From: Gammaproteobacteria bacterium
Lineage (GTDB): Bacteria; Pseudomonadota; Gammaproteobacteria; VBWC01
Assembly: GCA_023266115.1 (NCBI GenBank)
Contig: JAHFRU010000001.1
Coordinates: 1-64,000, forward strand
DNA: 64,000 nt
Reading direction: 5' to 3'
The position numbers were made by a program, and so were the translations under genes. How positions within the stretch are numbered: position 1 is the stretch's first letter; the number at the start of each line of letters is the position of its first letter. The notes under the pieces were generated by a model, which worked only from the letters and a program-made list of their open reading frames with translations, had not been told where the DNA came from and ran no database searches. Shown here piece after piece: positions 48,029 to 63,663 of this stretch.

Positions 48029-48808
48029 ATGCGACACGTTTTAGCAGTTATTTCACTATTTTCCGCGGTGACCATGGTTGCCACGTCGGCTCACGCTTCG
48101 GGGATGTTTCCCAAGGGCAACGGCAACAAGGCCAACGGCGAGAAGATTTTTCAGCAGGGTAAAGGGGACGTCCCCGCCTGTCTCAGCTGTCACGGCGAAG
48201 ACGGGTCCGGTAACGATGATCTGGGGACCCCGGCTATTGCAGGTCAGGGTTTTTCGTTCCTCCGGAAGCAGCTCGAAGATTTCGCGACCGATCGTCGGCA
48301 GGATACGACGATGTTTGTGATGAACGCCAACGCCAAGGGGTTGACGCCTGAGGATCGCGACGATGTCGCAACGTATCTGACGAGCCGGAAAGGTGGTTTC
48401 AAGGGATCTGATCTGGACGAGCTGAAAAAAGGCGGAAGCGTCGAGGTCGGCATGGTCTATAAAGGCAAGGCCCTTGTAGAGTACGGCAGTCCCGTGCGAA
48501 ACGACGGTTTCCCGAAAGAGTTGGGCAGCAAGGGGGCGGGTGTGCCAGCTTGCAAATCCTGTCACGACTTTGCGGGAAGAGGGGCTCCGCCGGTTTATCC
48601 CCAGATCGGACAGCAGCGCTATGTATACCTGGTCAATCAGCTGAAGAAATGGCGTGACGGGAGCCGGGCAAATGACCCCAAGGGGCAGATGCAGGCGGTA
48701 GCCCGTAAGTTGTCGGATGATGATATCCATAATGCGGCCGCGTATCTGACGAATGCGAGCCCGTATACCGTCGGCAATACCCGCACACCGTACGATCATG
48801 CGCACTAA
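48029..48808 (+). CDS. Dihaem cytochrome c (c4-like)
   Basis: 259 aa. A Sec signal (to about residue 24, AHASG) precedes two cytochrome c domains with haem motifs CLSCH (near residue 53) and CKSCH (near residue 175). Possible axial methionines lie in the MFVMNANAKG and GQMQAV segments. The overall layout is that of c4 cytochromes, periplasmic electron donors to oxidases. A strong hairpin (48864-48898) follows. Confidence 0.93.
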   Translation: MRHVLAVISLFSAVTMVATSAHASGMFPKGNGNKANGEKIFQQGKGDVPACLSCHGEDGSGNDDLGTPAIAGQGFSFLRKQLEDFATDRRQDTTMFVMNANAKGLTPEDRDDVATYLTSRKGGFKGSDLDELKKGGSVEVGMVYKGKALVEYGSPVRNDGFPKELGSKGAGVPACKSCHDFAGRGAPPVYPQIGQQRYVYLVNQLKKWRDGSRANDPKGQMQAVARKLSDDDIHNAAAYLTNASPYTVGNTRTPYDHAH

Positions 48809-48863
48809 AACGGTGACTTGATCTTTTTTTGCTACGTTGCAGGGTTTTTTATTAGTCTGCATG

Positions 48864-48898
48864 ACGCATAAGGGCGGGAAATTCCCGCCCTTATGCGT
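48864..48898 (+). terminator. Hairpin downstream of the dihaem cytochrome gene
   Basis: ACGCATAAGGGCGGGAA, one nt, then the exact reverse complement: a 17-bp perfect stem. A T run (TTT) follows. It is 56 nt after the stop codon. Confidence 0.7.
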
Positions 48899-49274
48899 TT
48901 CTGGCGCTCTCAAGTACGATTTTCTCTCGCGGCAATTCATTAAGCCCTGACAGGCGAGAGTGGCCAATTCGTCGCCTCATGCGTTGGCGTGTGATTTTTT
49001 CGAAACGGGGCGGACCTGCTTTGCTGGCGTGGACCGGTGCGTGGGGGCGAAGTTGCCCGATCTTATGGTAGTATGAACCGGTCGTGTTGGGGCTGGCGCC
49101 TGAAAGAGCCAGAGACGACAGGAAACGTTCGCCTTGTCCGTTAGATGTGTTGGAACTCGTGCGCATGTATTAGTATCCACAGCGATTCGCACTATTGCGC
49201 GTTAGGCAGTATCCTCGCACCCCCACCGTATTCGCCGCAATTAATCAACGTTTGTGTTGAATGGATGAAAAGCT
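48899..49274. other. Interval upstream of the first membrane cytochrome
   Basis: 376 nt without a convincing gene; it should hold the promoter of the 49275 operon. TCAAC-N6-GTTGA at 49245-49260 is a weak inverted repeat. No activator site can be named. Confidence 0.5.
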
Positions 49275-49865
49275 ATGGGCAAGCAGCCGCTTAAAAAAGG
49301 TGAAAAGGTTTTGTTCATGATGTTCGGCCTTTTTTTGCTGGTCGTCATGATAGGTTATGCGGCGCTTGAAACGATCAGAATCAGGTCTGACAAGCCGATT
49401 TTTGTCCAGCGTACCCATTTCGATTTTTCCCCGGAAGGAAAAAAAGGTTCAGAGTTGTATCGCACGGCACAGTGCAACACCTGCCACCGCGCGGTGCGCT
49501 CCGGGACCAGCATGGGCTTGTCCCTTGACGGCATCGGATCGAAGCGCACCCTGGAATGGATCCAGAGCTTCCTGATCCATCCTGAAGACATTTACGGTGC
49601 GCCCACGATTGATCATGGTACGCGGCCCAAGGAAGCGGCCTACGTCGCCGATCTGCCGAAGGAGAATCTGCGCCTGATTTCGATATTTTTGTCGGAGCTC
49701 CGGGCAGATCCGGGTTCGTCAGTGGCCAAGGCGCCGCCGCCTGGCCGATCGCCGTTTATTGATACGATGATTGGCAATTTTGCACCGGACAACTGGAAAG
49801 AGAAATATCAGGATATCCGGGAAAAGATGCCATCGGATCCAGCCCAGCAGGATGCGCACGAATGA
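49275..49865 (+). CDS. Membrane-anchored monohaem cytochrome c
   Basis: 196 aa. N-terminal TM anchor (residues about 12-33), then a single haem motif CNTCH (near residue 73), MGLSLDGIGSKRT, and a proline-rich tail. The arrangement resembles the paralogue at 56668 (haem motif, then LDGIGS, then a Trp-phe segment). It probably faces the periplasm. Overlaps the next gene by 4 nt (ATGA). Confidence 0.88.
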   Translation: MGKQPLKKGEKVLFMMFGLFLLVVMIGYAALETIRIRSDKPIFVQRTHFDFSPEGKKGSELYRTAQCNTCHRAVRSGTSMGLSLDGIGSKRTLEWIQSFLIHPEDIYGAPTIDHGTRPKEAAYVADLPKENLRLISIFLSELRADPGSSVAKAPPPGRSPFIDTMIGNFAPDNWKEKYQDIREKMPSDPAQQDAHE

Positions 49866-50389
49866 ACGAGCCATGGGTGCACGCAGAGGAAACGGCATAC
49901 CGTCAGTACACGTTGTATTTTATATACGCGTGTATTATCTATAGCTTGATCGGTTTTTCGTGGGGCGCATTGATGGGCGGCATAGCGGAGTTTCGCTATT
50001 TTGTCGATCATCGCCTGCATGGCGACCTTATTGTCCGCGCCCACACTCACATCAATTTGCTGGGCTGGGTGGAGATGGCGATTTTTGCGGCGGTTTATTA
50101 CATCGTGCCGCGCCTGGTTCATCGGCCGATTTATAGCCTGAAGCTGGTGCGCTGGCACTTCTGGATACATAACTTCGGATTGATCGGCATGGTCGTGTTT
50201 TTTTCGTTGGCCGGATTACTCGGGGGCATGGAAAGCCAGCACTCGGCCCCGGAGCAGGTTGAGGTGATCATCCGTCCGCTGCTCGCCAGCGTCGGCATAT
50301 TCGGCAGCTTCGTGCTGCTCGCCAACGGTATCTGGGCATTTAATTTGTTTCGTACCTGTTCGGGCTGGAAGCGTGGCTATGAGGCCTAG
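49862..50389 (+). CDS. Mini haem-copper-oxidase-subunit-I-like membrane protein
   Basis: 175 aa with about four TM helices. Residues 58-72 (RAHTHINLLGW) and the following YYIVPR resemble the helix II low-spin haem region of the CcoN/NorB superfamily; then KLVRWHFWIHNFGL looks like helix III. There are too few helices for a catalytic subunit and no CuB ligands. It may bind haem b as a dimer (inference). A similar protein is at 63151-63663. Confidence 0.8.
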   Translation: MNEPWVHAEETAYRQYTLYFIYACIIYSLIGFSWGALMGGIAEFRYFVDHRLHGDLIVRAHTHINLLGWVEMAIFAAVYYIVPRLVHRPIYSLKLVRWHFWIHNFGLIGMVVFFSLAGLLGGMESQHSAPEQVEVIIRPLLASVGIFGSFVLLANGIWAFNLFRTCSGWKRGYEA

Positions 50390-50891
50390 TGGATTTTTTT
50401 CCGGGTTCCTCGCCGTATCGTTGTTGCTGCTGGGCGGCTGTACGGAATCTCTCGAGGGTACCTTGCATGTCGGTGCCAAGGCCCCGAGTCTGCGTACCAA
50501 GACCCTGGCAGATGTCGGTGGCGATTTCAGCCGACTGACCACGTATCGATATCCGGATGAGCGCATGTACCAGTATTCGCTCGACCAGGCGCTGCTCACT
50601 GGCAAGCCGATCCTGGTGGAGTTTGCGACGCCGGGCCATTGCACGGTCTGTGACAGCCAGTTGCAGATGCTCAAAGGGATGTTGACGAAATACGAATCGG
50701 AGGTGTTGTTTGTCCACCTGGATCAATACCAGAATCCTGGTGCGTTTATCGCCTACAAGGTGAAAGGCGATCCCTGGACATTCCTGATCGACCGGGACGG
50801 CGTTGTGCGCTTCAAGCGACCAGGCCGTCTGCTGTACAACGAGCTGGAAGCGGCGATCTCACATTTCTTGCCGGACAAAGACGCAGGATAA
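50379..50891 (+). CDS. Thioredoxin-fold lipoprotein
   Basis: 170 aa from ATG 50379. Lipobox Leu-Gly-Gly-Cys near residue 20; the mature part has a thioredoxin-like fold with EFATPGHCTVCDSQL as the CxxC centre (near residue 83). FLIDRDGVVRFKRPG is the usual C-terminal beta strand pair. It could reduce haem-cysteines or act on Cu sites during oxidase assembly (inference). Overlaps the mini-oxidase gene by 11 nt. Confidence 0.85.
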   Translation: MRPSGFFSGFLAVSLLLLGGCTESLEGTLHVGAKAPSLRTKTLADVGGDFSRLTTYRYPDERMYQYSLDQALLTGKPILVEFATPGHCTVCDSQLQMLKGMLTKYESEVLFVHLDQYQNPGAFIAYKVKGDPWTFLIDRDGVVRFKRPGRLLYNELEAAISHFLPDKDAG

Positions 50892-50892
50892 G

Positions 50893-51351
50893 ATGTCCCA
50901 GCAGGAGGCACGATATACGCTGGCTCAGGATAAAAAGGGTATGGCCTGGGACCTGCTGCTGTATGTGTCAACCGTCATTTTTCTTGTCTCCATAGCTATG
51001 AAATTGTGGTACACAGCGGACAAGAACTGGTCGTATCTGCTGATGTTTCTCGGCAGTTTCTTTTTTTTCGTCGGTGCCAACAGGATTTTGAAGACGCGCC
51101 TGATGATACTGCCGTCGGCGCCGGTCGCGCTTGCCGTGGACAAGCAGCGTGTGCGAGTAGAACTGCGCAGCGGCGATATCGTCGATCTGGTCAAGGATCT
51201 GCGTTTTTTCGCTGATTTTTCCGGTAAAAGCTTGGCCCTCACCGGGATGGATATGTCCGGACAAAAGCACCAGTATGTGTTTCATCGCGGACAATTCAGC
51301 GTTGGCGGATCGTTCGATGACGCCAAGTCCCGCTTGCAGATATACCGCTAG
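50893..51351 (+). CDS. Two-TM membrane protein of unknown function
   Basis: 152 aa from ATG 50893, one nt after the thioredoxin gene. Two TM helices (residues about 18-35 and 44-62) precede a soluble beta-rich region of about 85 residues. Resembles PH-like or YcxB-like domains in layout but no family is certain. Confidence 0.6.
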   Translation: MSQQEARYTLAQDKKGMAWDLLLYVSTVIFLVSIAMKLWYTADKNWSYLLMFLGSFFFFVGANRILKTRLMILPSAPVALAVDKQRVRVELRSGDIVDLVKDLRFFADFSGKSLALTGMDMSGQKHQYVFHRGQFSVGGSFDDAKSRLQIYR

Positions 51352-51383
51352 CCGCGCGAGCGGTCGCACCGTTACCAATCCAT

Positions 51384-51402
51384 GCGCCCGTGTCACGGGC
51401 GC
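51384..51402. terminator. Bidirectional hairpin between convergent genes
   Basis: GCGCCCGTG T CACGGGCGC, a 9-bp perfect palindrome between the 50893 gene and the minus-strand 51406 gene. Few T residues follow. Confidence 0.55.
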
Positions 51403-51405
51403 CGT

Positions 51406-51633
51406 TTATTGATTGTCAGCTGTGCCTGTCGCGCCATATCGGGCAAGCCGACGGCGCTTGACCACATCGCGTGCCATCAACCCGATGACGATCGCCCAGA
51501 TGATTGTTAACGCCACCATGATAACGCGCTCGGCCTGATCGCTGACCAGCCCGCCAATAAACATATGCACGGTATACGCGAACGTCACCAATGAACTCAG
51601 GGCGATAACGCCGTAAATTATAGTTTCCTTCAT
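51406..51633 (-). CDS. Small two-TM membrane protein
   Basis: 75 aa from ATG 51633; a TTG 24 nt upstream is an alternative start. Two hydrophobic helices (residues about 5-25 and 35-55) and a basic C-terminus (KRRRLARYG). Not recognised. It is on the opposite strand to the surrounding oxidase genes. Confidence 0.6.
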   Translation of the reverse strand: MKETIIYGVIALSSLVTFAYTVHMFIGGLVSDQAERVIMVALTIIWAIVIGLMARDVVKRRRLARYGATGTADNQ

Positions 51634-51982
51634 ACTTTCAGTAATCTTGCCAAGCAAACCGACGCATGGAGTGAGCCGATTAACAGACGAAAGCGCCTGT
51701 TGCCCCCTTCGTGAAAGCTCGGAAACAAGTATAGCACCGGATGAATCGCCTTTAATTTCAGAGAACTGTTGTTAAGTGAAAGCGATTGATCGGACGCGAT
51801 TGCACAGGCCGTTACAATCGCGCCCACCGCACGCGTTAATTGCCGTTGCATTTGATATTGCGTCCGGCAGAAATTAGTGCTATTAATTACCGCCAATACC
51901 GTTTTGTTTTGGGGAATGTGCAGGGTTCCTTTGGCACGATCAGGGGAATCTTCAGCGGCTGCAACATCTGGGGGGGGGAAGG
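51634..51982. other. Divergent intergenic region
   Basis: 349 nt between the minus-strand small gene and the 51983 gene; it should contain the promoter of the main oxidase operon. It is relatively AT-rich. No regulatory palindrome could be named with confidence. Confidence 0.5.
51970..51978 (+). promoter_or_regulatory. G9 homopolymer before a small membrane gene
   Basis: Nine G, then AAGG, then ATG at 51983. Part of the SD region. Confidence 0.6.
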
Positions 51983-52273
51983 ATGGATAACAAGCTCACA
52001 CTTAATCGGTTGTTCTTCGTATTATTGATTCCTGCGTTCACGACCGGCATGGGTAACGGCAGCGTGTTTGGTGCCGCGGTCATGTGCGCGGTCGGGCGCG
52101 GCAATTACGAAAACTGGGGTGGCTGGGGCATGCAGGCTTACGACCCAGCGACTTTTTCGGGTTTTGTTGACTGGGTCATGCTTTTGTTCGGGCTTGCCTT
52201 CGCGATAATCACCTTCCTGGCGATGCGCCGGCACGGTGAAATCGAGATACAGCGCGACAATACGGGTTGGTAA
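51983..52273 (+). CDS. Small membrane protein, first in the CcoN-like cluster
   Basis: 96 aa. Two hydrophobic segments (residues about 8-35 and 63-82), the first interrupted by Gly/Asn-rich turns and a cysteine; the middle GRGNYENWGGWG is striking. The C-terminus is charged. Not recognised; context suggests an accessory subunit of the oxidase (inference). G9 tract upstream. Confidence 0.6.
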   Translation: MDNKLTLNRLFFVLLIPAFTTGMGNGSVFGAAVMCAVGRGNYENWGGWGMQAYDPATFSGFVDWVMLLFGLAFAIITFLAMRRHGEIEIQRDNTGW

Positions 52274-52308
52274 CATTTTTTGTGATCGAGACGATTCAGG
52301 AAAAAATA

Positions 52309-52316
52309 GGGGGGGG
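52309..52316 (+). promoter_or_regulatory. G8 homopolymer before a 29-aa ORF
   Basis: Eight G, then CTTGAG and ATG 52323. Confidence 0.55.
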
Positions 52317-52322
52317 CTTGAG

Positions 52323-52412
52323 ATGGCTGCATTTGCAGGAACCTGTGGGATAGTGTTGGCGTTTTCGAGCATGTGGCTCACTTGGTACTTGTTGAACAAG
52401 ATGTCCGAGTGA
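52323..52412 (+). CDS. 29-aa single-TM peptide
   Basis: ATG 52323 to TGA 52410-52412: MAAFAGTCGIVLAFSSMWL, then TWYLLNKMSE. One TM helix, short charged tail. The G8/AG-rich stretch serves as SD. Located 88 nt before the catalytic-subunit gene, like a CcoM/CcoQ-size oxidase peptide. Confidence 0.5.
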   Translation: MAAFAGTCGIVLAFSSMWLTWYLLNKMSE

Positions 52413-52500
52413 TACAGGTACTCGTCAGCCTCTTGGGGGTTTGCATTTAAAGACAGATTTATACACTGTCTGGCAGGGAAAAAATTAGGAGGGTTTGGAC

Positions 52501-53910
52501 ATGCTGTTTAAATATCTCTTCGCGAAAAATGAAGATATCCCGGCCGGTTCGGCGACGATATTCTTCGGTTTTTCGTCCATTCTCTGGTTCATCGTCGGTA
52601 CGGGCCTCGGCTCGTTTAACGCCGCCAAGCTGGCGTTCCCCGATTTTGTGACCGGTGTCGAAATGTTCGCCTTCGGCCATATGCGGCAGGTGCATGTGCT
52701 CGCCGTGATTCTTGGATGGATCTCGATGGCCTTCGCCATGACCATGATGTACATGACGCCGGCGCTGGGCAACACCAAGCTATGGTCTGAGAAACTGGGC
52801 CTGTGGACCGCGTTCCTGTGGAATGTCGGGCTGGGTACCGGTCTGACGTTGTTGTGGTGCGGCATTACTTCCGGGCGTGAATATTCTGACTTGATCTGGC
52901 CCGTCGACCTTGTCGTTATCTTCGGCGTGTTATTGCCGCTGGGGATCAATGTGTGGATGACTATTGCACAACGGCGAACGCAGGGTATCTACATTACCAA
53001 CTGGTTCTTCGGCGCCTGCATCTTCATGCTTATCACTACATTCCTGGTCGGGAATTCACCGGAACTGTTCAACCTGACCGGGTTGACGGAGGCGTACCTC
53101 ACGTTCTGGTTTGCGCATAACGTGCTCGGCTTGTGGATTACGCCGGTGGCGGCGGGGATTGCGTATTACGTGTTGCCGAAGCTGACAGGAAATCCGTTGT
53201 ACTCGCATCGCATTGGCCATTTGCATTTCTGGTCGATCATTGCGTTCTACTCGACACCTGCTTCTCACCACCTGTTGTCCGCCCCGTTGCCGGAGTGGCT
53301 GAAGTCATTCGCGTCGGTTGAAGGCGTGCTGATTCTGATTCCTGCAGTAGCATTTGTCGCCAACATCCTGTTGACGATGAAAGGGCGTTGGAGCATGTTC
53401 GTCGAAAACGTCGAGACGAAGTTCACCATCACCGGCGTTTTGCTGGCCATACCGTTGAACATGCAGGGCGGATTCCAGCAGACCCGCGCCATCAACTGGT
53501 ACATACACGGTACCGGCTGGATCGTAGCGCATGCGCACCTCGCGCTGCTTGGGATGTCGAGCTTCCTGGAAGTCGCGGCGGTGTACTTCGGTTTGCAGCA
53601 GATGATGAGAAGAAAGTTGTATTCGCTGGCCCTCGCCAACGTTCACTACTGGTTCTTCATCATCGGCTTCTGCACCTACTGGATATCTATGACCATTGCC
53701 GGATTGATTCAGGGAGCCGGCAAGATCTATGAGGTTCCGTATATCGACGTTGTCATTGCCGAGCACCCATACATGATCGCCCGCTGGGTCGGTGGCACTA
53801 TGGTCTTCACCGGCAACATGATCTGGCTGTACAACATGTACATGACTGCCAGAGAGGGTACGCTGGTACCGAAGGGCCGCTACGCTCACGAACTGGCCTA
53901 CGAGCGGTAA
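52501..53910 (+). CDS. Catalytic subunit I of a C-family (cbb3-type) haem-copper oxidase, CcoN-like
   Basis: 469 aa from ATG 52501, preceded by TAGGAGGG. About 12 TM helices. Ligands seen: His65 and His346 for the low-spin haem, His344 for the high-spin haem, His206 (FAHNVLG), His256 and His257 for CuB. Tyr250 is six residues before His256, the position of the cross-linked tyrosine of cbb3 enzymes, and numbering agrees with P. stutzeri CcoN within one. REYSDLIWPVD resembles the conserved helix III glutamate region. These features indicate an O2 reductase rather than NO reductase. It reduces oxygen to water and pumps protons (family knowledge). Confidence 0.93.
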   Translation: MLFKYLFAKNEDIPAGSATIFFGFSSILWFIVGTGLGSFNAAKLAFPDFVTGVEMFAFGHMRQVHVLAVILGWISMAFAMTMMYMTPALGNTKLWSEKLGLWTAFLWNVGLGTGLTLLWCGITSGREYSDLIWPVDLVVIFGVLLPLGINVWMTIAQRRTQGIYITNWFFGACIFMLITTFLVGNSPELFNLTGLTEAYLTFWFAHNVLGLWITPVAAGIAYYVLPKLTGNPLYSHRIGHLHFWSIIAFYSTPASHHLLSAPLPEWLKSFASVEGVLILIPAVAFVANILLTMKGRWSMFVENVETKFTITGVLLAIPLNMQGGFQQTRAINWYIHGTGWIVAHAHLALLGMSSFLEVAAVYFGLQQMMRRKLYSLALANVHYWFFIIGFCTYWISMTIAGLIQGAGKIYEVPYIDVVIAEHPYMIARWVGGTMVFTGNMIWLYNMYMTAREGTLVPKGRYAHELAYER

Positions 53911-53956
53911 GAAATACTCGGGAGTTAGTTGCTCGTGAATGAAGTCTAGGTTGTGC

Positions 53957-53981
53957 GTCCCCCGGTCACAGGCCGGGGGAC
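53957..53981 (+). terminator. Intercistronic hairpin between CcoN-like and CcoO-like genes
   Basis: GTCCCCCGG, seven nt, CCGGGGGAC: 9-bp GC-rich stem without a T tract. Probably attenuates or stabilises the message rather than fully terminating it. Confidence 0.6.
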
Positions 53982-54006
53982 TTCGAAACCAGAGGAGGGA
54001 GGCTAA

Positions 54007-54963
54007 GTGGCATTTCAAAATTATAGATGGGGTACTGCGGGCATAGGGGGGATGTTTGGTCTGTCCATGACCATCACGCTTTTTTTCCCGAGTTTCGACT
54101 TCAGATCGGCGGAGTCGACCTGGGTTGGTCTGGACAAGTCGATGTCGAACGGCAGGACGATCGGTTTCAGTTACGAAGATCCTACCGTAACGGGCCAGGG
54201 CAAACCGCTGACTGTGATCCTGAACAAGGATCCGAAGACCGGCGCCACCATCGATCCGCCGGTGCGTGCCTACGTTTACCGGCCCGGCACGCCGTTTGCG
54301 TCACCGCTCAATCATCCGGATAACCTTGGACCGACGGTCAAGCGGCTTAGCATCGACAAGGGGAAGATTGATCAGGCCGTCAAGGCGCAAGGCGCCGTGT
54401 TCACGATTAATCACGCGGACGTCAATGGTGAAGAATGGGCCTATGCCGAGAATGCCAGCGTAACCCGCGGCTGGACCGTGGATGCGGCGTTGTCGACAGC
54501 GGGCGACGCGAACACCAAGTACGTAGGACGTGGCAAGTCGATATACATCCACGAGGGTTGCTGGTGGTGCCATACCCTGCTGCCCGAGCATACGCAGGAC
54601 TGGCAGGTCTTCGGTACCCCGCCTTATCTGGGCGACTTCAACGGTGAGATGCCCACGGCATTCGGTTCTGACCGTAAGGCACCGGATATCCTGCACGTTG
54701 CATCGCGAAACTCCTCACGTGAATGGATGATGATGCATTTTTTCAACCCGCGTCTGGTGCAGCCAAATTCCATCATGCCGCGCTTCGACTATTTGTGGGG
54801 GAGGGTTGACGTCAACGGCAATCCGATTGACTTCAGTACGTGGCGGAAAGAGTATACGGCATATCGGAAGGGTGAACGCCCGTACCCGCCGGAAGTTCCG
54901 GAGTATGCGAGGAATGCGGAAATTCGTGCATTGATCGATTGGGTATTGACCAGTTTGAAATAA
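54007..54963 (+). CDS. CcoO-like monohaem cytochrome c subunit with large insertion
   Basis: 318 aa from GTG 54007, SD GAGGAGGGAGG. N-terminal TM helix (residues about 10-30). The haem motif lies in IYIHEGCWWCHTLL near residue 184. It is followed by GSDRKAPDILHVASRNSSREW and NPRLVQPNSIMPRFDYLW, which are the typical CcoO elements including the axial Met. CcoO is usually about 200 aa; here about 110 extra residues separate the anchor from the haem domain. It passes electrons to CcoN (family role). Confidence 0.9.
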   Translation: MAFQNYRWGTAGIGGMFGLSMTITLFFPSFDFRSAESTWVGLDKSMSNGRTIGFSYEDPTVTGQGKPLTVILNKDPKTGATIDPPVRAYVYRPGTPFASPLNHPDNLGPTVKRLSIDKGKIDQAVKAQGAVFTINHADVNGEEWAYAENASVTRGWTVDAALSTAGDANTKYVGRGKSIYIHEGCWWCHTLLPEHTQDWQVFGTPPYLGDFNGEMPTAFGSDRKAPDILHVASRNSSREWMMMHFFNPRLVQPNSIMPRFDYLWGRVDVNGNPIDFSTWRKEYTAYRKGERPYPPEVPEYARNAEIRALIDWVLTSLK

Positions 54964-54983
54964 TCGTAGGGGGAGGATTTCAG

Positions 54984-55631
54984 ATGGCTTGGAAGTTTGA
55001 TAACCCGTTGTACAGTTTGTCCGATGAAGAACAGAACAAGCGGGCAATCACATTGTGGGAAGCAGAACGGCACGGCGACCTTTGGGCCGCAAATAACAGG
55101 CTGCCGTTTCCGGTCACGCTCCTTATTGCGTTGATCGTGTTGACAGCGTTTATGATGACGATGCCAATCTGGGGCCAACGGCCAACGGCGGAGCTTTATG
55201 CGCCGATGGTACAGCTGATGGACAGCCCGCAGGTTAAAGGCATGGCGACCAACAAGGAAAAGATAGCCTATTTGACGACGGAGGCGATGAAGGCACATGA
55301 GCAGGCGAAGGACTCCCGCCTGCCCGGCTTGCTGGAGCGGCATCCCATCACTTGGTCGGACCTGCAATTGATGGCACCGGCGATCAGGGAAATCCAGTCC
55401 AGCGGCGGAACGTATGGTCTGGAAAGCTATACGGTGGTCGGCGACCAGGTGGTACTCGCTAACTTCGAGGGTATGCGGCGTCCGGATGGCAAGCGCCTCC
55501 GCACTCAGCCGTGGTTTGACACAGGGTTCATTATCGATATGTTTTATGTGACTTACTTCATCATCGTAATGGTGCTCGTGTGCAAACGGTTGCCGCACTT
55601 CAGCCAGAAAGCGAACCCGAAGAAGAACTAG
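54984..55631 (+). CDS. Two-TM membrane protein in the CcoP position
   Basis: 215 aa from ATG 54984 with a GGGGGAGG site. The N-terminus WKFDNPLYSLSDEEQN resembles the start of CcoP in its Asn-Pro-Leu motif. TM helices at about residues 42-62 and 183-203 flank a soluble loop with no CxxCH. It may replace CcoP structurally but cannot carry haem c; this is inference. Confidence 0.65.
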   Translation: MAWKFDNPLYSLSDEEQNKRAITLWEAERHGDLWAANNRLPFPVTLLIALIVLTAFMMTMPIWGQRPTAELYAPMVQLMDSPQVKGMATNKEKIAYLTTEAMKAHEQAKDSRLPGLLERHPITWSDLQLMAPAIREIQSSGGTYGLESYTVVGDQVVLANFEGMRRPDGKRLRTQPWFDTGFIIDMFYVTYFIIVMVLVCKRLPHFSQKANPKKN

Positions 55632-55693
55632 ATTGTTCGGCAGTTCGTTGCCGAGGCAGGCGGTTTCTGCGGTTTAGGACAGAAGGAGGACGT

Positions 55694-55846
55694 ATGTTAG
55701 ACATAGATTACGCACCGGCGGTGTTTGCGATGTGGATCATAATGGTGTTGGTTTGCCCGGCAATATATGGTCTTTTCGTGGTAGACAAATACTGGAAACG
55801 GAACAAGGAAGACCAGGCGCAAAAAAATGCAAACGTCTTCAATTGA
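55694..55846 (+). CDS. CcoQ-like 50-aa single-TM protein
   Basis: 50 aa from ATG 55694, AAGGAGGA upstream. One TM helix (residues about 8-29), then VDKYWKRNKEDQAQKN, a typical positively charged CcoQ-like tail. Last gene before a strong terminator. Confidence 0.7.
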   Translation: MLDIDYAPAVFAMWIIMVLVCPAIYGLFVVDKYWKRNKEDQAQKNANVFN

Positions 55847-55867
55847 CGCAAGCAGTCGATGAATAAA

Positions 55868-55902
55868 AGAGATGCCGCTGCAACAGCGGCATCTCTTTTT
55901 TT
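55868..55902 (+). terminator. Rho-independent terminator of the CcoN/O-like operon
   Basis: AGAGATGCCGCTG, CAA loop, CAGCGGCATCTCT then TTTTT: 13-bp perfect stem with U tract, 21 nt after the CcoQ-like gene. Confidence 0.93.
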
Positions 55903-56046: not shown

Positions 56047-56382
56047 ATGCTTGAACCGTTGCTTTTTCTGGCCGCTTACGGCGGCCATATCGACCTCGTG
56101 AACCAACTGCTTCCGTTGCTGGTCGAAAGTACTGATAGTACTACGAGATTCGGTATCGACCTGAGCGTTGAAGGATTACGATCCCAGCACTACAGCGTCG
56201 GCATCTTCGTCTTCCTGGTGGTTTCCCTGGTCGTATTTGGGGCGATTATCTATATCTATTTGCCCAAAGATGGGAAACGGTTGAAACTGGGCGAACGGAT
56301 CATGTTTGGCGCGATAATATTGGGCATGGTGTGCGCGGTAATCATGGGTTGGCTGCAGTTAATTGACGGTTTCCTGTTATAG
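56047..56382 (+). CDS. Small membrane protein
   Basis: 111 aa. Two TM helices (residues about 50-72 and 84-107); the first 45 residues are poorly supported as the start codon has only a weak SD (CGAAGA). Short charged loop LPKDGKRLKLGER. Not recognised. Starts the second oxidase-related operon. Confidence 0.55.
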   Translation: MLEPLLFLAAYGGHIDLVNQLLPLLVESTDSTTRFGIDLSVEGLRSQHYSVGIFVFLVVSLVVFGAIIYIYLPKDGKRLKLGERIMFGAIILGMVCAVIMGWLQLIDGFLL

Positions 56383-56393
56383 GAGTGATGACA

Positions 56394-56681
56394 ATGAAGA
56401 GTTGGATAGAATCGCTACCGGACGGATGGACGATTTATGTATGGATGGTGGTCGGCGTGGCAATTCTGATCGCGGTGGTGATCGGACTGCGCTGGGCCGC
56501 ACGCAACGCCCAATTTGATGAGGACATCAAATACGTTGTTTTCGACGAGAATGACAAGGAACGGATGGATCCGGAGGAGTATGCGAAGTACAAGCAGGTG
56601 ATGGAACAACAGGAAACGTCACGTAAGGAATACCTGAAGCACAAGGCCGAGGAACGTGCCGCGAAACATGCGAACCGGTGA
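56394..56681 (+). CDS. CcoS-like protein with a C-terminal extension
   Basis: 95 aa from ATG 56394 with AGGAG 8 nt upstream. One TM helix (residues about 14-34) followed by RWAARNAQFDEDIKYVVFDEND, similar to the QFDD segment of CcoS, the cbb3 maturation protein. CcoS is normally about 50-70 aa; the remaining 45 residues form a charged helix. The similarity is by eye only. Confidence 0.6.
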   Translation: MKSWIESLPDGWTIYVWMVVGVAILIAVVIGLRWAARNAQFDEDIKYVVFDENDKERMDPEEYAKYKQVMEQQETSRKEYLKHKAEERAAKHANR

Positions 56682-57165
56682 GAAACGCATTATCGCCGTT
56701 ATTATCGCGCTGCCGCTGCTCGCGATTGGCTATCAGTTGTTGATGTTCCCTCAGCGGGAAGCAGATCCGGGCATCCCGTTTTATCTGGCGGCTTCACCGG
56801 AGATCAAACAGCAGGCCGAGCATATCTACGCGCGTAATAAATGTTCTGACTGTCACTCGTTGTGGATGGTGCGCAATATGATGGAGAGCGTACCGGCGCC
56901 GCGGCTGGACGGGATCGGCTCATTACGCGATGAGCAGTGGTTTTTTGAATATTTTTCCGCGCCGGACCCTCAGCGAATTCTTCCTTCGCGCCTGAAGCAA
57001 GAGTACCGGATGCCCTCCTATGCCCATTTGCCGGTGGAAGAGCGCCGGACGCTCGCTGCGTATATGGCCGGATTAAAGGTTGAGGACTGGTATCTCGAGG
57101 ACGTCAGAAAGTCCGAGTACGAAAAACTTACCGGTAAGCCATATCGGACTGATCGGCCCGAATGA
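56668..57165 (+). CDS. Membrane-anchored monohaem cytochrome c
   Basis: 165 aa from ATG 56668 (overlaps the previous gene by 14 nt). TM anchor at residues about 6-25. Haem motif CSDCH near residue 58, then RLDGIGS as in the 49275 protein, and a probable axial Met in YRMPSY. The periplasmic face is expected. Confidence 0.88.
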   Translation: MRTGEKRIIAVIIALPLLAIGYQLLMFPQREADPGIPFYLAASPEIKQQAEHIYARNKCSDCHSLWMVRNMMESVPAPRLDGIGSLRDEQWFFEYFSAPDPQRILPSRLKQEYRMPSYAHLPVEERRTLAAYMAGLKVEDWYLEDVRKSEYEKLTGKPYRTDRPE

Positions 57166-57674
57166 CCGCGAGCTTCAAAAGCAGGCTTCAGGATCTTGGT
57201 ATGGCGCTGGTGGCAATCAGTGCCGGTGCCGTCATCGTTTATTTTGGCGACCGATTGCTCGGCGTCAAACTTGAACTGTTCTGGGGTGTATCGACGTTTA
57301 GTCCGCCATGGGTGCTGGATCTGTTTTTCGTGCCGTTTCTCGCCGGCATCGTGGTGTCCTGTATTTACGGATTAGGTGGCAAGATAGTGGCTCATTTTTC
57401 GCCGCTGATCGTGAGAATCGAGAGTTACTACGAGCTCAATTCAGTACCCGCGGACGCGCTGCCGGACTATTCGGTTTTATTGCCGTTGAGTTACTGGTTG
57501 CTGGTCATGATCGTATCTGTCGAATTTGCAGCGATCGGCGGAGTGGTCGGCGAGATACTTATCAAGCGGGTCTACGGCCGATCTCCGAAATCGCTGCTGC
57601 ACAAGAAGTACGCTAAAACCAGCGACGCACCTGTAGCCACCGCTGCCGAGCTGCCGTCGAGAGAGGCTGACTGA
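57162..57674 (+). CDS. Multi-TM membrane protein
   Basis: 170 aa, starts MTASFKSRLQDLG. About four TM helices (residues 12-30, 45-70, 105-122, 123-140). Not recognised. Overlaps both neighbours by 4 and 1 nt, so it is cotranscribed with the cytochrome and the SUMF1 gene. Confidence 0.65.
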   Translation: MTASFKSRLQDLGMALVAISAGAVIVYFGDRLLGVKLELFWGVSTFSPPWVLDLFFVPFLAGIVVSCIYGLGGKIVAHFSPLIVRIESYYELNSVPADALPDYSVLLPLSYWLLVMIVSVEFAAIGGVVGEILIKRVYGRSPKSLLHKKYAKTSDAPVATAAELPSREAD

Positions 57675-58738
57675 TGAAAGCTGGTTTCGCAGGTCCGCCC
57701 CGGATCACGAAGGCGCAGGTCACTACCAGGAAGCGATATCTTTCCGCGACGCTGGTTACCTGCGTTGTCCTCGCGTTTCTCGGTGGCACGATACACGTGC
57801 TTACTCTGGGCGAGAACCGTATGCGTGACATGCGTAGCAAGATCGCCTACGACGAGAACCAGGTAAAAGATAAACTTCGGGCGGCCGGTCAGGACCTGTT
57901 TATTCAGACCGAACACGAACTTCGACTGACGTCTACGGAATCCTACAGCGTCGCCGAGGCGGAGGCGTTGCTCACCGCTGGCGAGTGGCAGGAGCTCGAT
58001 ACAATGATCACCGTGCCGGGTGGGAAATTTGTTATGGGTACCGATTTTGGGCGGGCCGATGTGCAGGACAAGCCACAACACATGCAGACGGTGTCGGCCT
58101 TCCAGATCGATAAATATCCGGTGACCAACGCCCAGTACGCGCGGTTCGTGGCGGCTACCGGCCGTCGACCCCCGCTGCACTGGAAGAACGGGCGGATACC
58201 GGCGCGGCTGGAGAAACACCCGGTGACGATGGTGTCGTGGTTCGACGCAAAGAAATACGCCGAATGGGCAGGCAAGCGCCTGCCGACGGAAGCAGAGTGG
58301 GAGCGGGCTGCACGCGGTACCGATGGCAGGCGCTGGCCGTGGGGGAATAATATGGATCCTGAACGGCTCAATACTTACTATCAGGTCGGTTCAACCACCA
58401 TGGTCGGTTCCTATACGAATGGCGCCAGCGCGGAAGGTGTTATGGATCTGGCGGGGAATGTCAGTGAGTGGGTTGCCGATGACTTTCTGCCCTATCCTGA
58501 AACCGAGGCGCCAAAGGAGATGTTCCAGGCAAAGGTTGCCCAGGTTCCCGCGTCGGCTGCGGACCGCTCCAAGCAGGTAGCCGAATTTGTCGAGACTGAA
58601 GAGCGCTACAAGGCCATGCGCGGCGGCTCTTGGAAGAGCGACCCGTTTTCGACGTCGGCATATCACCGGAATTTTTCCTGGCCAAATTTTGCATCGGATT
58701 TCTTTGGATTCCGGTGCGCGAAATCGGCTGGTACGTGA
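57674..58738 (+). CDS. Membrane-anchored SUMF1/FGE-domain protein
   Basis: 354 aa. TM anchor at residues about 21-47, then a 55-residue helical stalk and the FGE-like domain: ITVPGGKFVMGTD, VTMVSWFDAKKYAEWAGKRLPTEAEWERAARG, MDLAGNVSEW and a MRGGSWKSD end segment. The catalytic cysteine pair after RGGSW is missing. A paralogue is the lipoprotein at 511-1488. Translated from an overlapping TGATG. Role is unknown; operon position suggests oxidase assembly or a haem/metal-binding scaffold (inference). Confidence 0.85.
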   Translation: MKAGFAGPPRITKAQVTTRKRYLSATLVTCVVLAFLGGTIHVLTLGENRMRDMRSKIAYDENQVKDKLRAAGQDLFIQTEHELRLTSTESYSVAEAEALLTAGEWQELDTMITVPGGKFVMGTDFGRADVQDKPQHMQTVSAFQIDKYPVTNAQYARFVAATGRRPPLHWKNGRIPARLEKHPVTMVSWFDAKKYAEWAGKRLPTEAEWERAARGTDGRRWPWGNNMDPERLNTYYQVGSTTMVGSYTNGASAEGVMDLAGNVSEWVADDFLPYPETEAPKEMFQAKVAQVPASAADRSKQVAEFVETEERYKAMRGGSWKSDPFSTSAYHRNFSWPNFASDFFGFRCAKSAGT

Positions 58739-58739
58739 T

Positions 58740-58991
58740 ATGCGATATTATCTGACAGCATTGTCATGTCTACTCGGCGCGTTGCCGCTTCAGGCATCGG
58801 CGGCGGACAGTTATCGCTGGTTGACGGTAACGATCGATACGCCGTGGGCGATCTTCATATTCCTGTTACCAATGGTACTGACTCCCATTATACTGATGGC
58901 GGTCTTGTACTGGCGTTATGCAATACGGCCCTCCGACAAGGCGAAGAACGAAGAAAAGCAGCGGGAAATCGCCGAAAAACAATCCCCGTAG
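58740..58991 (+). CDS. Small protein with signal peptide and TM segment
   Basis: 83 aa from ATG 58740, one nt after the SUMF1 stop. A Sec-like N-terminus (LQASAADS) is followed by a TM helix (residues about 35-58) and a charged, Lys/Glu-rich tail. Not recognised. Confidence 0.6.
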   Translation: MRYYLTALSCLLGALPLQASAADSYRWLTVTIDTPWAIFIFLLPMVLTPIILMAVLYWRYAIRPSDKAKNEEKQREIAEKQSP

Positions 58992-59148
58992 CTGGACGTT
59001 TTTACACAAGGGTGAGAGCGGTAATCGAGTTGTCCGTCGACCGTGGTTTGATAGCGACCCCGCGGATTGGCGGCACCCGCAGCAGTCCGCAATATTGTTT
59101 CAATGTTTCTGTGTAGGCTTGCTGTTTTCGTTAACAGGGGGAACCTGG

Positions 59149-59538
59149 ATGCCGGTTGGACATAGTATTAACTCTGGCGGAATCTTGTTGCTGACACTGC
59201 GCCGGCTCAGCTGCGTATTGCTGGTCGGGGTTTGCCTGGCAGTCGGCGGACAGGCCATCGCCGAGGTCGAACAGGCGGAGGCGGTAATCCATGCCTTTAC
59301 CTCTAGGGAGCCGGTCGAAAGTGACGTCGTCAAAATTTCCGACAAGAAAAAGCATACGGTACTGTTCGCGATGGGTATCGCCTTGTTGATATTCATCATC
59401 ACCACCGCCGTGCTGGGAATTTCCATGGTGTTGTTCGGCAAACAGGTTTTTGTAGCGCACATGATTTTCGCCGGCTTCAGTGTCTTCCTGGCGATCGCTC
59501 ATGCGGTCGTGGCGATCGTGTGGTTCTTTCCATTCTGA
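59149..59538 (+). CDS. Membrane protein with three hydrophobic segments
   Basis: 129 aa from ATG 59149 (CAGGGGGAACC upstream). A signal-like helix (residues about 10-32) is followed by a soluble segment and two further TM helices in the C-terminal half. Not recognised. An upstream frame from 58918 is not supported because its first 77 residues are arginine-rich anti-frame sequence. Confidence 0.5.
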   Translation: MPVGHSINSGGILLLTLRRLSCVLLVGVCLAVGGQAIAEVEQAEAVIHAFTSREPVESDVVKISDKKKHTVLFAMGIALLIFIITTAVLGISMVLFGKQVFVAHMIFAGFSVFLAIAHAVVAIVWFFPF

Positions 59539-59553
59539 AATCAGCGACCGGCA

Positions 59554-62223
59554 GTGGAATCCCAGCTCGCGTCCGATGAGCAGCTGACGGTGTCCGGGGG
59601 CAAACACCGGTCTGACCGTGGCTGGGCACGGTCACTGGTTCTGATCTATTTCTTCTCCGGTGTCGCCAGCGTGGCCTACGAAATTCTGTGGGTGCGCATG
59701 TTGTCGCTGCAGTTCGGCGTCGGCATTTTCTCGGTCATCGTTACTGTCGTTGCGTTCATGGCCGGACTGGGCGCCGGGAGTCTGGCCGGCACCGTGTTGT
59801 CGCGCCGGACTTCGCGGCCGCTGGTTATCTTCGCCGGCCTGGAAGCCGCGGTGGCGATATTCGCGCTCTGCATGCCGCTGCTGTTCCAGCAGCTCGATAC
59901 GTGGCTGGGCGCAATGTCCGCTGCCGGCGGGCTGGATAGCTGGTTCGTCGTCCAGGCTGGCGCGGCATTTCTGATCCTGGTGCTGCCGGCGACTGCGATG
60001 GGGGCAGGTTTCCCGTTGATATTGCGAGCGCTGTCGCCGGCATCGGTGTCGCTTGCCCGGGTTTACGGGGTGAACACACTGGGTGGCGCGACCGGTGCGC
60101 TGTTACCGCTGGCACTGCTTCCCGCTATCGGCTGGACTCACGCTGTTCAGGTCGTGGCAGCCACCGGCATCGGTATCGCCGTGAGCGCCGTGTTGCTGGG
60201 GCGGTGGGCACCGACGACGGATGCCGCGCCGGCGCCGGTGGATGCCGATGCGGGACGGCCATCGTTGACCACGTTATTCGCCTATGCCGGTATCGGGCTG
60301 GCGGCGTTGATGTTGCAGATCGGGTGGACGCGTTTGTTTGGCATGTTCATGCTGCGCACGGAATACGTGCTCGCGATCGTGCTGGCGGTATTTCTTGTCG
60401 GCATCGGGCTCGGCAGTCTGTGCGCTCGCTGGCGACCGGCTAACGCGCTGTTTGCATGGTTCCCCCCGTTGGCGTCGCTCGCGGCACTCGTGACGCTGTG
60501 GCTGTTGCCGGTGTTGGCGGCGTGGGCCGATCAGGCGCAGTTTGGATCGATGTACGGCGCATTGATTTCGCAGGGCCTGGTGATCGCCTGTCTGACATTG
60601 CCGGTGACGTTGATCATGGGCGCGTGGTTGCCCCTTTTGACCGGCCGGCTGGGCGGCAGCGCCGGTTCGATGAGCGGCGCGTGGCTATACGGCGTGAATT
60701 CGCTGGGTGCGGCAGGCGGGGCGTTGCTGGCTGGACTGGTCCTGGTGCCGTGGCTGGGGACCGCTGCAACGATCGTTATTGCGGCGCTGCTGTTGTTTCT
60801 GTTTGGCATGTGGTGGGCGACATCACGGCAGATGTGGTTCGTCGGCGCGGCGTTGCTGGTGGCCGCCGTTCCCGTGACGAGATTGCCGGACATCGATATT
60901 CTGTTGCCGGTTACGCAGGCCGGCAGCCATCAACTCGACGTCCATGAAGATGCGTTGTCGATCACCCATGTCGTCGAACAACCGGACGGGCAGCGACTGC
61001 TATTGTCGGATCTGCGCCGCATGGATGCCTCGAGCGACCCGGTGGCGGTGGTTGCTCAACAGAATCAGGCCAGACTACCGCTTCTGCTGCATCGTGAGCC
61101 GCACACCGTATTGTATCTGGGGCTTGGTACCGGAATTTCTGCCGCTGGCGCAAGCGATCTACCCGACCTCTCTGTAGTCGCCGTAGAGCTGACACAGGGT
61201 GCAATCAATGCCGCGGCGAACTGGTTTGCCCCGGTCAACGGAGATATCACGCAAACGATAGACGTGGTGCGTGATGACGCCCGTCGCTTTCTGCGCATTA
61301 CGCCACAGCGATACGACGTGATTATCGGCGACCTGTTTCACCCCGACCTGGTAGGCCGCAGTAATCTGCTGTCGATACAACAGTTCCGGCGTGCCAAAGA
61401 TCGTCTCGAACACGACGGTGTTTTTACGCAGTGGCTGGCGTTGAACCAGTTCGACACCACCTCGCTCGCGATTGTGCTGCGCAGCTTCAAAGAGGTTTTC
61501 GCCGATCATATGCTGTTCGTCGACGGCTTTCGCCTGGCGTTGGTCGGGTTCAAGGAGCCGTGGCCGGGTGTGCCGGATATTCTGGATAAGTTGCAGCGCC
61601 TGAACGAGCATCAACGGGCGTCGCTTACCGGTGGCGAAGGTGTGTGGACGTGGTTAGGCCGGTATTGGGGAAGAATCCCCGAAACTACCGGGCCGGTGCA
61701 GGATGACTGGGTGCCAAAAATTGAATTTCGCCTGCCGCGAGCCCGGTATACCAGGGAGTTTGACCTGTCGATCTTGCTGGAACAACTGCTGCCACAGAGG
61801 CCATCGGTCGAGGAAGCCGTATCGGCATTGAACATCCCGCCGCTCTATCTGCCGGAATTTGACCGCGCCTATATTGCATCGGAACTCGCGATACGTAGCT
61901 GGCTGGCTTCGTTGCACCAGCAGTCACAGGAGTCGCAGCGTCTGTTGCGTATCGCGTATCAGGCCAATTCCCGGGATCGCTGGATCACGACGGATCTGGC
62001 GGACAGAATGCTGGCGTCGCTGCCGCAGGCGATCGCGCAGGGAATCGACAAGAGAAGCGCGCTGGAGGAGATTCTGACGGCGTCCCCGGACCATGTCGCG
62101 GCGCTGAAGGCCCTGCGCGCGGCGGAATTCGAGCGAGGCAACACCCGTCGGGCGGACGAATTACGCGCTCACATCGTGACGCTGGCGCCGCTCGATAAGG
62201 AGATAAAGGAGTTTGTGCGCTGA
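59554..62223 (+). CDS. MFS-spermidine-synthase fusion (SpeE-like)
   Basis: 889 aa from GTG 59554. About 14 TM helices (residues 30-470) in the pattern of fused spermidine-synthase transporters (ERYxxxxLWVRMLSLQFGV-like start), then a Rossmann methyltransferase/PAPT domain around VLYLGLGTGISAAGASD and VVAVELTQGAINAA, ending in a TPR-like helical tail. Active-site Asp residues typical of SpeE are only partly visible (DVVRDDARRFL), so the reaction is uncertain. Last gene of the operon. Confidence 0.85.
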   Translation: MESQLASDEQLTVSGGKHRSDRGWARSLVLIYFFSGVASVAYEILWVRMLSLQFGVGIFSVIVTVVAFMAGLGAGSLAGTVLSRRTSRPLVIFAGLEAAVAIFALCMPLLFQQLDTWLGAMSAAGGLDSWFVVQAGAAFLILVLPATAMGAGFPLILRALSPASVSLARVYGVNTLGGATGALLPLALLPAIGWTHAVQVVAATGIGIAVSAVLLGRWAPTTDAAPAPVDADAGRPSLTTLFAYAGIGLAALMLQIGWTRLFGMFMLRTEYVLAIVLAVFLVGIGLGSLCARWRPANALFAWFPPLASLAALVTLWLLPVLAAWADQAQFGSMYGALISQGLVIACLTLPVTLIMGAWLPLLTGRLGGSAGSMSGAWLYGVNSLGAAGGALLAGLVLVPWLGTAATIVIAALLLFLFGMWWATSRQMWFVGAALLVAAVPVTRLPDIDILLPVTQAGSHQLDVHEDALSITHVVEQPDGQRLLLSDLRRMDASSDPVAVVAQQNQARLPLLLHREPHTVLYLGLGTGISAAGASDLPDLSVVAVELTQGAINAAANWFAPVNGDITQTIDVVRDDARRFLRITPQRYDVIIGDLFHPDLVGRSNLLSIQQFRRAKDRLEHDGVFTQWLALNQFDTTSLAIVLRSFKEVFADHMLFVDGFRLALVGFKEPWPGVPDILDKLQRLNEHQRASLTGGEGVWTWLGRYWGRIPETTGPVQDDWVPKIEFRLPRARYTREFDLSILLEQLLPQRPSVEEAVSALNIPPLYLPEFDRAYIASELAIRSWLASLHQQSQESQRLLRIAYQANSRDRWITTDLADRMLASLPQAIAQGIDKRSALEEILTASPDHVAALKALRAAEFERGNTRRADELRAHIVTLAPLDKEIKEFVR

Positions 62224-63150: not shown

Positions 63151-63663
63151 ATGCCGCCTGAGTCGCAACACCGTCGCCTGACGAAGTTTTTGCTGGGCGC
63201 GGCGATTTTCTTTTTTGTGGGAACGGTGCAAGGTGTGGTCCAGGTCCTGCCGCCGATTCGGGCATGGCTGGACGCCGTCGGCAGCCCGATCAGCGGACCG
63301 GGTCACATGATAGATCCGCTGGCGCACGCCCATATCAATGTGGTCGGTGGTCTCGTTATTCTCGGGATGGCTTTTACCTATTATCTGTTCCCGACCATTA
63401 CCGGTAAGCCCGTCTGGTCGCAGCGGTTGGTCGATCACTCGTTCTGGTGGACGGCGACCGGTGTCAGCTGTTTCTACACGACCTTGCTGGTGTTTGGCCT
63501 GATCGAAGGGAAGCTGATGCTCAGCGACCCGCAGGCGGTGCACGATGTGCACAAGTATTACGCCCCCGTCATCAGTGTCGTGGCGACTGTCATGGGTATG
63601 GGTTTCTGGATCTACTTCGCCAACGTTCTGATGACGGTGAGACAGTCAGCCCGAAAATCATGA
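63151..63663 (+). CDS. Mini haem-copper-oxidase-subunit-I-like membrane protein (second copy)
   Basis: 170 aa, about four TM helices. LAHAHINVVGG at residues about 58-68 followed by YYLFPTITGKPVWSQRLV matches the helix II/III layout of the 49862 protein. N-terminal MPPESQHRRL is charged and cytoplasmic. No CuB histidine cluster. Overlaps the next gene (ATGA). Confidence 0.8.
   Translation: MPPESQHRRLTKFLLGAAIFFFVGTVQGVVQVLPPIRAWLDAVGSPISGPGHMIDPLAHAHINVVGGLVILGMAFTYYLFPTITGKPVWSQRLVDHSFWWTATGVSCFYTTLLVFGLIEGKLMLSDPQAVHDVHKYYAPVISVVATVMGMGFWIYFANVLMTVRQSARKS

Follow-up and report, generated by a model that had tools for sequence, protein, structure and literature searches.

A haem-less homologue of the CcoP membrane anchor lies in the CcoP position of a divergent clade of putative cbb3-type oxidases

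Introduction

In cbb3 oxidases, electrons normally enter through CcoP, whose N-terminal membrane anchor has been assigned a part in proton uptake. The DNA analyzed here, a stretch of 64,000 nucleotides from a gammaproteobacterium (assembly GCA_023266115.1, contig JAHFRU010000001.1, positions 1 to 64,000; hereafter the window), contains an oxidase operon in which a haem-less protein, designated X, lies where CcoP would be expected. An earlier note made from the sequence alone had read this operon as a cbb3-type oxidase without CcoP, and had regarded the haem-less protein as a dedicated replacement. This raises the question of what X is, and how electrons and protons would reach the catalytic center of such an enzyme.

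Results

The operon consisted of the following features:

51983-52273, plus strand: S1, a small conserved membrane protein, present in 27/27 full-length related loci; no Pfam match over the cut-off
52323-52412, plus strand: S2, a 29-residue single-TM ORF between S1 and CcoN, with a homologue in 27/27 full-length loci
52501-53910, plus strand: CcoN, catalytic subunit of the divergent clade, with an ATG start and 469 amino acids; COX1 match at 8e-75, ligands all conserved
54007-54963, plus strand: CcoO, a mono-haem c subunit with an extra domain of ~100 residues; FixO match at 4.5e-17 over residues 175-297
54984-55631, plus strand: X, a haem-less CcoP-anchor homologue with a FixP_N-like helix, a helical periplasmic domain, and a C-terminal TM helix
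55694-55846, plus strand: a 50-residue single-TM protein in the CcoQ position, present in 27/27 full-length loci
55865-55902, plus strand: an intrinsic terminator with a 16-bp stem and a T-run (-31 kcal/mol, z -7)

The strong hairpin and T-run lay after the stop codon of the 50-residue protein, in agreement with the clean terminator described in the earlier note. The note had also called the 50-residue protein CcoQ-like; its position and size fitted this description, but there was no FixQ match. The S2 ORF was missing from that description of the operon. The proposed Pfam searches of the ORFs gave COX1 for CcoN, FixO for CcoO, and nothing for X.

When the window CcoN was compared with the CcoN of Pseudomonas stutzeri (PDB ID: 3MK7), the two sequences aligned over their full length (1e-59), and His65, His206, Tyr250, His256/257, His344, and His346 corresponded in the alignment to H60, H207, Y251, H257/258, H345, and H347 of the P. 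stutzeri protein. The six histidine ligands and the active-site tyrosine in helix VII were invariant in 25/25 members of the clade. The ligands named in the earlier note were thus all found at their positions, and these residues support its view that the protein looks like an active C-family oxidase. The window CcoN scored 222.6 bits against the NCBIfam equivalog model TIGR00780 (ccoN) and did not reach the cut-off of 583, which at the sequence level places it as a divergent relative of ccoN and not an equivalog. Clade members matched the window CcoN with 790-1064 bits, whereas canonical CcoNs matched it with 185-226 bits. In two phylogenetic trees the clade formed one side of a branch, with SH-aLRT values of 99 and 92; the second tree was built without two sequences of the first, namely L203, an incorrect antisense ORF, and a long CcoNO fusion. 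Compared with canonical CcoN, all 25 clade members carried the substitutions S240G, Y317A, and E323Q (P. stutzeri numbering), while E122, Y223, H243, and T293 were retained. We take S240 and Y317 to be part of the enzyme's only proton channel, which is of the K type, and Glu323 presumably lies on the proximal side of haem b3. If these assignments hold, the three replacements would be expected to change proton uptake and to raise the potential of haem b3, which would suit high-potential donors.

CcoO had one CXXCH motif and matched the FixO Pfam model with 62.7 bits (cut-off 29.6), and the haem ligands C185, C188, H189, and M257 were invariant in 41 sequences. The TM helix and the haem domain were separated by an extra domain that is absent from canonical CcoO models. 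It covered residues ~61-170 (nucleotides 54187-54500 correspond to residues ~61-165), and was predicted to consist of mixed strand and helix with a pLDDT of ~87-97. With the CcoO model as query, Foldseek found no PDB entry below an E value of 0.001.

The window X had two predicted TM helices (residues 42-59 and 180-200) and, searched alone, matched no family in Pfam or NCBIfam and no PDB sequence. The CXXCH motif was found in none of 98 X proteins (69 + 29), and the description of X as a haem-less protein with two TM helices in the CcoP position therefore stood. Among 38 diverse X proteins, FixP_N was the only Pfam family that recurred (14/38, best E value 1.4e-4), and in a second set of X proteins, 9/10 of which came from another class, it was matched by 10/10 at 1e-4 to 2e-3. 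One X scored 27.2 bits against FixP_N as a genome ORF, above the cut-off of 24.9, and 23.8 as a protein in hmmscan. Single X proteins mostly remained under the Pfam cut-off, and the homology was visible only through the family profile. When X was compared with 29 CcoP sequences by hhalign, the first X set gave 79%, and the combined set matched the anchor at 91.8%. In the controls, the value was 0.8% for reversed CcoP, 20% for the highest-scoring of 60 column-shuffled anchors, 3% for the CcoP haem domains, and no more than 0.3% for the remaining membrane proteins encoded in the locus. The homologous stretch comprised the first ~65 residues of X, in which X and the CcoP anchor shared the motif GG(I/L)xExNN(P/R)LP followed by a TM helix. 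At the level of the family, these sequence comparisons clearly show homology between the N-terminus of X and FixP_N, the membrane anchor of CcoP, and X does not appear to be an unrelated newcomer.

Thus, X was haem-less and dedicated, as the earlier note had proposed, but not unrelated to CcoP. The note had also considered a CcoP match with degenerate haem sites; the anchor did match, but the haem domains were absent from X rather than degenerate. In ordinary cbb3 oxidases the FixP_N segment packs against CcoN and, according to published work, supplies a glutamate at the mouth of the proton channel. A glutamate two residues ahead of NN(P/R)LP was present in 58/67 X proteins. Since the window X has alanine at this position, a role of that glutamate in proton entry cannot be universal. 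Residues ~70-140 of X were predicted to form a helical domain with a pLDDT of about 88-96, followed by the C-terminal TM helix, and Foldseek found nothing in the PDB below an E value of 0.001 for the X model. According to this model, X has, instead of the haem domains of CcoP, a helical periplasmic domain without haem and an additional TM helix.

The earlier note had found no two-haem CcoP in the operon and had left room for a CcoP gene elsewhere. We searched the whole genome to which the window belongs (3.10 Mb, 98.3% complete) for CcoP. The ccoP model gave only generic cytochrome c matches, the best with 51 bits against a cut-off of 180, and FixP_N gave one chance match and none above the cut-off. 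The absence of CcoP thus extended from the operon to the whole genome. The window CcoN was the only full-length haem-copper oxidase in this genome, and no cytochrome bd oxidase was found there. The genome contained RuBisCO; neither a decahaem MtrA-type cytochrome nor NarG/NxrA was found in it. On contig C6, at about 89000-92500 (L077-L081), there was a cluster of multi-haem cytochrome ORFs, one of them with five CXXCH motifs, reminiscent of clusters for extracellular electron uptake.

One scan for relatives of the window CcoN gave 46 loci, of which 27 were full-length enough to judge the gene order. The 46 loci belonged to gammaproteobacterial MAGs, one of them obtained from a biocathode, and to Candidatus Nitrotoga, Gallionellales, and further betaproteobacteria including a MAG of the Ferrovaceae; relatives of bacteria that oxidise iron, nitrite, or electrodes thus have this type of locus. 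The order S1, S2, CcoN, CcoO, X, 50-residue protein was found in 27/27 full-length loci, and in the shorter loci X followed CcoO in all but L039, whose contig ends at CcoO. X was found in 22/274 genomes of its own class and in 43/399 genomes of the phylum. Almost all of these 43 belonged to two families of another class, which we infer to be Zetaproteobacteria; in the divergent genomes of that class X likewise followed CcoO, beside CcoO/CcoN. X was not found on plasmids. These results bore out the proposal that the X family accompanies this CcoN clade. Among 21 X-bearing genomes of its own class, 18 had no other full-length COX1 match, and CcoP rose above the cut-off in three (G009, G101, and G241), exactly those with a second, canonical CcoN. 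CcoP therefore tracks the canonical enzyme, and X is strictly linked to the divergent CcoN.

Two modules flanked the oxidase genes, one at 48029-51657, which accompanied the oxidase in 23/27 loci, and one at 56047-62223, which did so in 27/27. They included the following genes:

48029-48808, plus strand: a di-haem periplasmic cytochrome c with two CXXCH motifs; Cytochrom_C twice at 2e-16, weak ccoP haem-domain match at 6e-8; 23/27 loci
49275-49865, plus strand: a membrane-anchored mono-haem cytochrome c; Cytochrom_C at 9e-5; 23/27 loci
49862-50389, plus strand: mini-CcoN, ~175 amino acids, homologous to the C-terminal part of CcoN, with the helix-X histidine pair; COX1 at 8.6e-18; 23/27 loci
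56047-56382, plus strand: a conserved small membrane protein of module 3; FixQ only at E 0.56; 27/27 loci
56385-56681, plus strand: a FixS/CcoS-like small membrane protein; FixS at E 0.0014, below the cut-off; 27/27 loci
56656-57165, plus strand: a membrane-anchored mono-haem cytochrome c with one CXXCH in 63/63 sequences and M119 conserved; 27/27 loci

In locus L067 the order was rearranged to module 3, the oxidase, and then module 1, but all of them stayed together, and this persistence despite rearrangement supports a functional linkage. The 56656 cytochrome is a candidate for the direct donor to CcoO, and the 48029 cytochrome is a candidate electron donor and perhaps the equivalent of Cyc1 of iron oxidisers. 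While the core of the operon was as the earlier note had read it, the changes in CcoN, the extra domain of CcoO, and these conserved cytochrome modules had been missed.

In the mini-CcoN encoded at 49862-50389, H61, H63, H99, and H103 were invariant in 29/29 sequences. A second mini-CcoN was encoded at 63151-63663; both proteins were ~170-175 amino acids long, were homologues of the C-terminal third of CcoN, and had the histidine pair of helix X but not the CuB histidines, and two short COX1 matches of this type occurred in nearly every X-bearing genome. The upstream module also encoded a thioredoxin-fold lipoprotein (50373-50891), possibly a maturation protein. In the downstream module, a protein like the formylglycine-generating enzyme (57674-58738; SUMF1-type, as judged by eye) was kept in 27/27 full-length loci, with a similar protein at 511-1488, and a spermidine-synthase-like membrane protein (59554-62223, by eye) lay in the same locus in 27/27. 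Just past the window, at 64218-66466 of contig C35 (L103:2219-4467), there were genes for a CcoG-like polyferredoxin, a short X paralogue designated X2 (64723-65154), and a CcoH-like lipoprotein, assigned by position and by eye. X2 had an anchor-type region and one further TM helix. In hhalign, X2 matched X at 93.7%; X2 alone against CcoP gave 0.5%, which was not significant with five sequences. Similar sets were present in L027 and L028.

Discussion

We consider it probable, from the sequence comparisons above, that the operon encodes an oxygen reductase of the C family (cbb3 type) whose CcoP is cut down to the membrane anchor X. As a presumed stoichiometric subunit, X would retain the structural role of CcoP and hold its place in the membrane. 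With the haem domains of CcoP replaced, electrons would enter directly at the haem c of CcoO and reach CuB by way of haem b and haem b3. The donor would be a separate cytochrome, either one of the mono-haem proteins encoded at 49275 and 56656 or the di-haem protein encoded at 48029, and redox and proton-pump properties would presumably be affected. Compared with canonical CcoNOQP (P. stutzeri, 3MK7), the enzyme has the same CcoN fold, metal ligands, active-site tyrosine, and mono-haem CcoO, and a FixP_N-type anchor in X, but differs in its haem-less third subunit, the S240G/Y317A/E323Q changes, the extra domain of CcoO, and the additional genes for small subunits.

A 'distal' cbb3 (Ducluzeau et al. 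2008) has been reported in Zetaproteobacteria and Gallionellaceae as a second type of cbb3 oxidase of iron oxidisers, with a reportedly different set of subunits (PMC7029218, PMC8788666, PMC10734462). The CcoN clade of the window is probably this distal cbb3. In Ca. Tenderia electrophaga, expression of the canonical ccoNOPQ is weak, whereas a non-canonical 'complex IV-2' ranks with the genes of highest expression (PMC5371394); compared by this description only, complex IV-2 resembles the window enzyme as a non-canonical terminal oxidase of a biocathode gammaproteobacterium. The cbb3 of the zetaproteobacterium M. ferrooxydans PV-1 is annotated as ccoNOP without CcoQ, and, compared by annotation only, its putative CcoP would set it apart from the window operon (PMC3179512). 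Our search of the literature on CcoP-less and distal cbb3 oxidases found no text describing X or tying it to CcoP.

The anchor of X could instead bind the 48029 protein, or the mono-haem 56656 protein, as a detached haem module, so that a CcoP-like relay would persist. That the 48029 gene is linked in 23/27 loci and the haem domain of its product matches the ccoP model (6e-8) agrees with this arrangement, as does the association of a cyc1 homologue with the cbb3 gene cluster in Sideroxydans ES-1 (PMC8788666). However, the 48029 protein looks like a soluble periplasmic carrier, its gene is unlinked in 4/27 loci, and many class I cytochromes c would be expected to match the ccoP model as weakly as this. 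We regard a split CcoP of this kind as possible but rather unlikely; it is a special case of the reduced CcoP proposed above and not a full alternative.

It is somewhat less likely still that X is an assembly factor, or a copper- or haem-insertion factor, for CcoNO, the working enzyme consisting of CcoNO and small peptides. X lacks any cofactor motif, and its homologue X2 overlaps ccoG and precedes the CcoH-like lipoprotein, a setting that suits such a role. Nevertheless, X itself lies between ccoO and the gene in the CcoQ position, within the structural operon, X2 already fills the accessory locus, and the anchor of X resembles the structural subunit CcoP and no known assembly factor.

An enzyme working mainly on a substrate other than oxygen, for example in NO reduction, is very improbable and was set aside: although every clade member has other residues in place of S240, Y317, and Glu323, the three CuB histidines, both sets of haem ligands, and the tyrosine are invariant and are those of an oxidase, the CcoN clade groups away from NOR-like sequences, and the protein is the only full-length haem-copper oxidase in 18/21 genomes, with no bd oxidase to substitute for it in its own genome.

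Returning to the reduction of CcoP to an anchor, a more far-reaching reading can be offered only tentatively. The clade may represent a distinct cbb3 branch in which CcoP was dismantled, with its anchor kept as the haem-less X and its haem relay moved to detachable cytochromes; its proton channel may have been rebuilt (S240G, Y317A) and the surroundings of haem b3 changed (E323Q), and these changes might adapt the enzyme to donors of high potential, for example Fe(II), nitrite, or electrodes.

By retaining the anchor without the haems, this clade would separate the two roles of CcoP in a natural experiment. X is also a precise marker gene for the divergent cbb3 oxidase. Because this enzyme is the only full-length haem-copper oxidase in most X-bearing genomes, it is probably the route of O2 respiration in many autotrophs that oxidise iron or nitrite or take electrons from electrodes, and its electron donor and proton yield would bear on the livelihood of these organisms.
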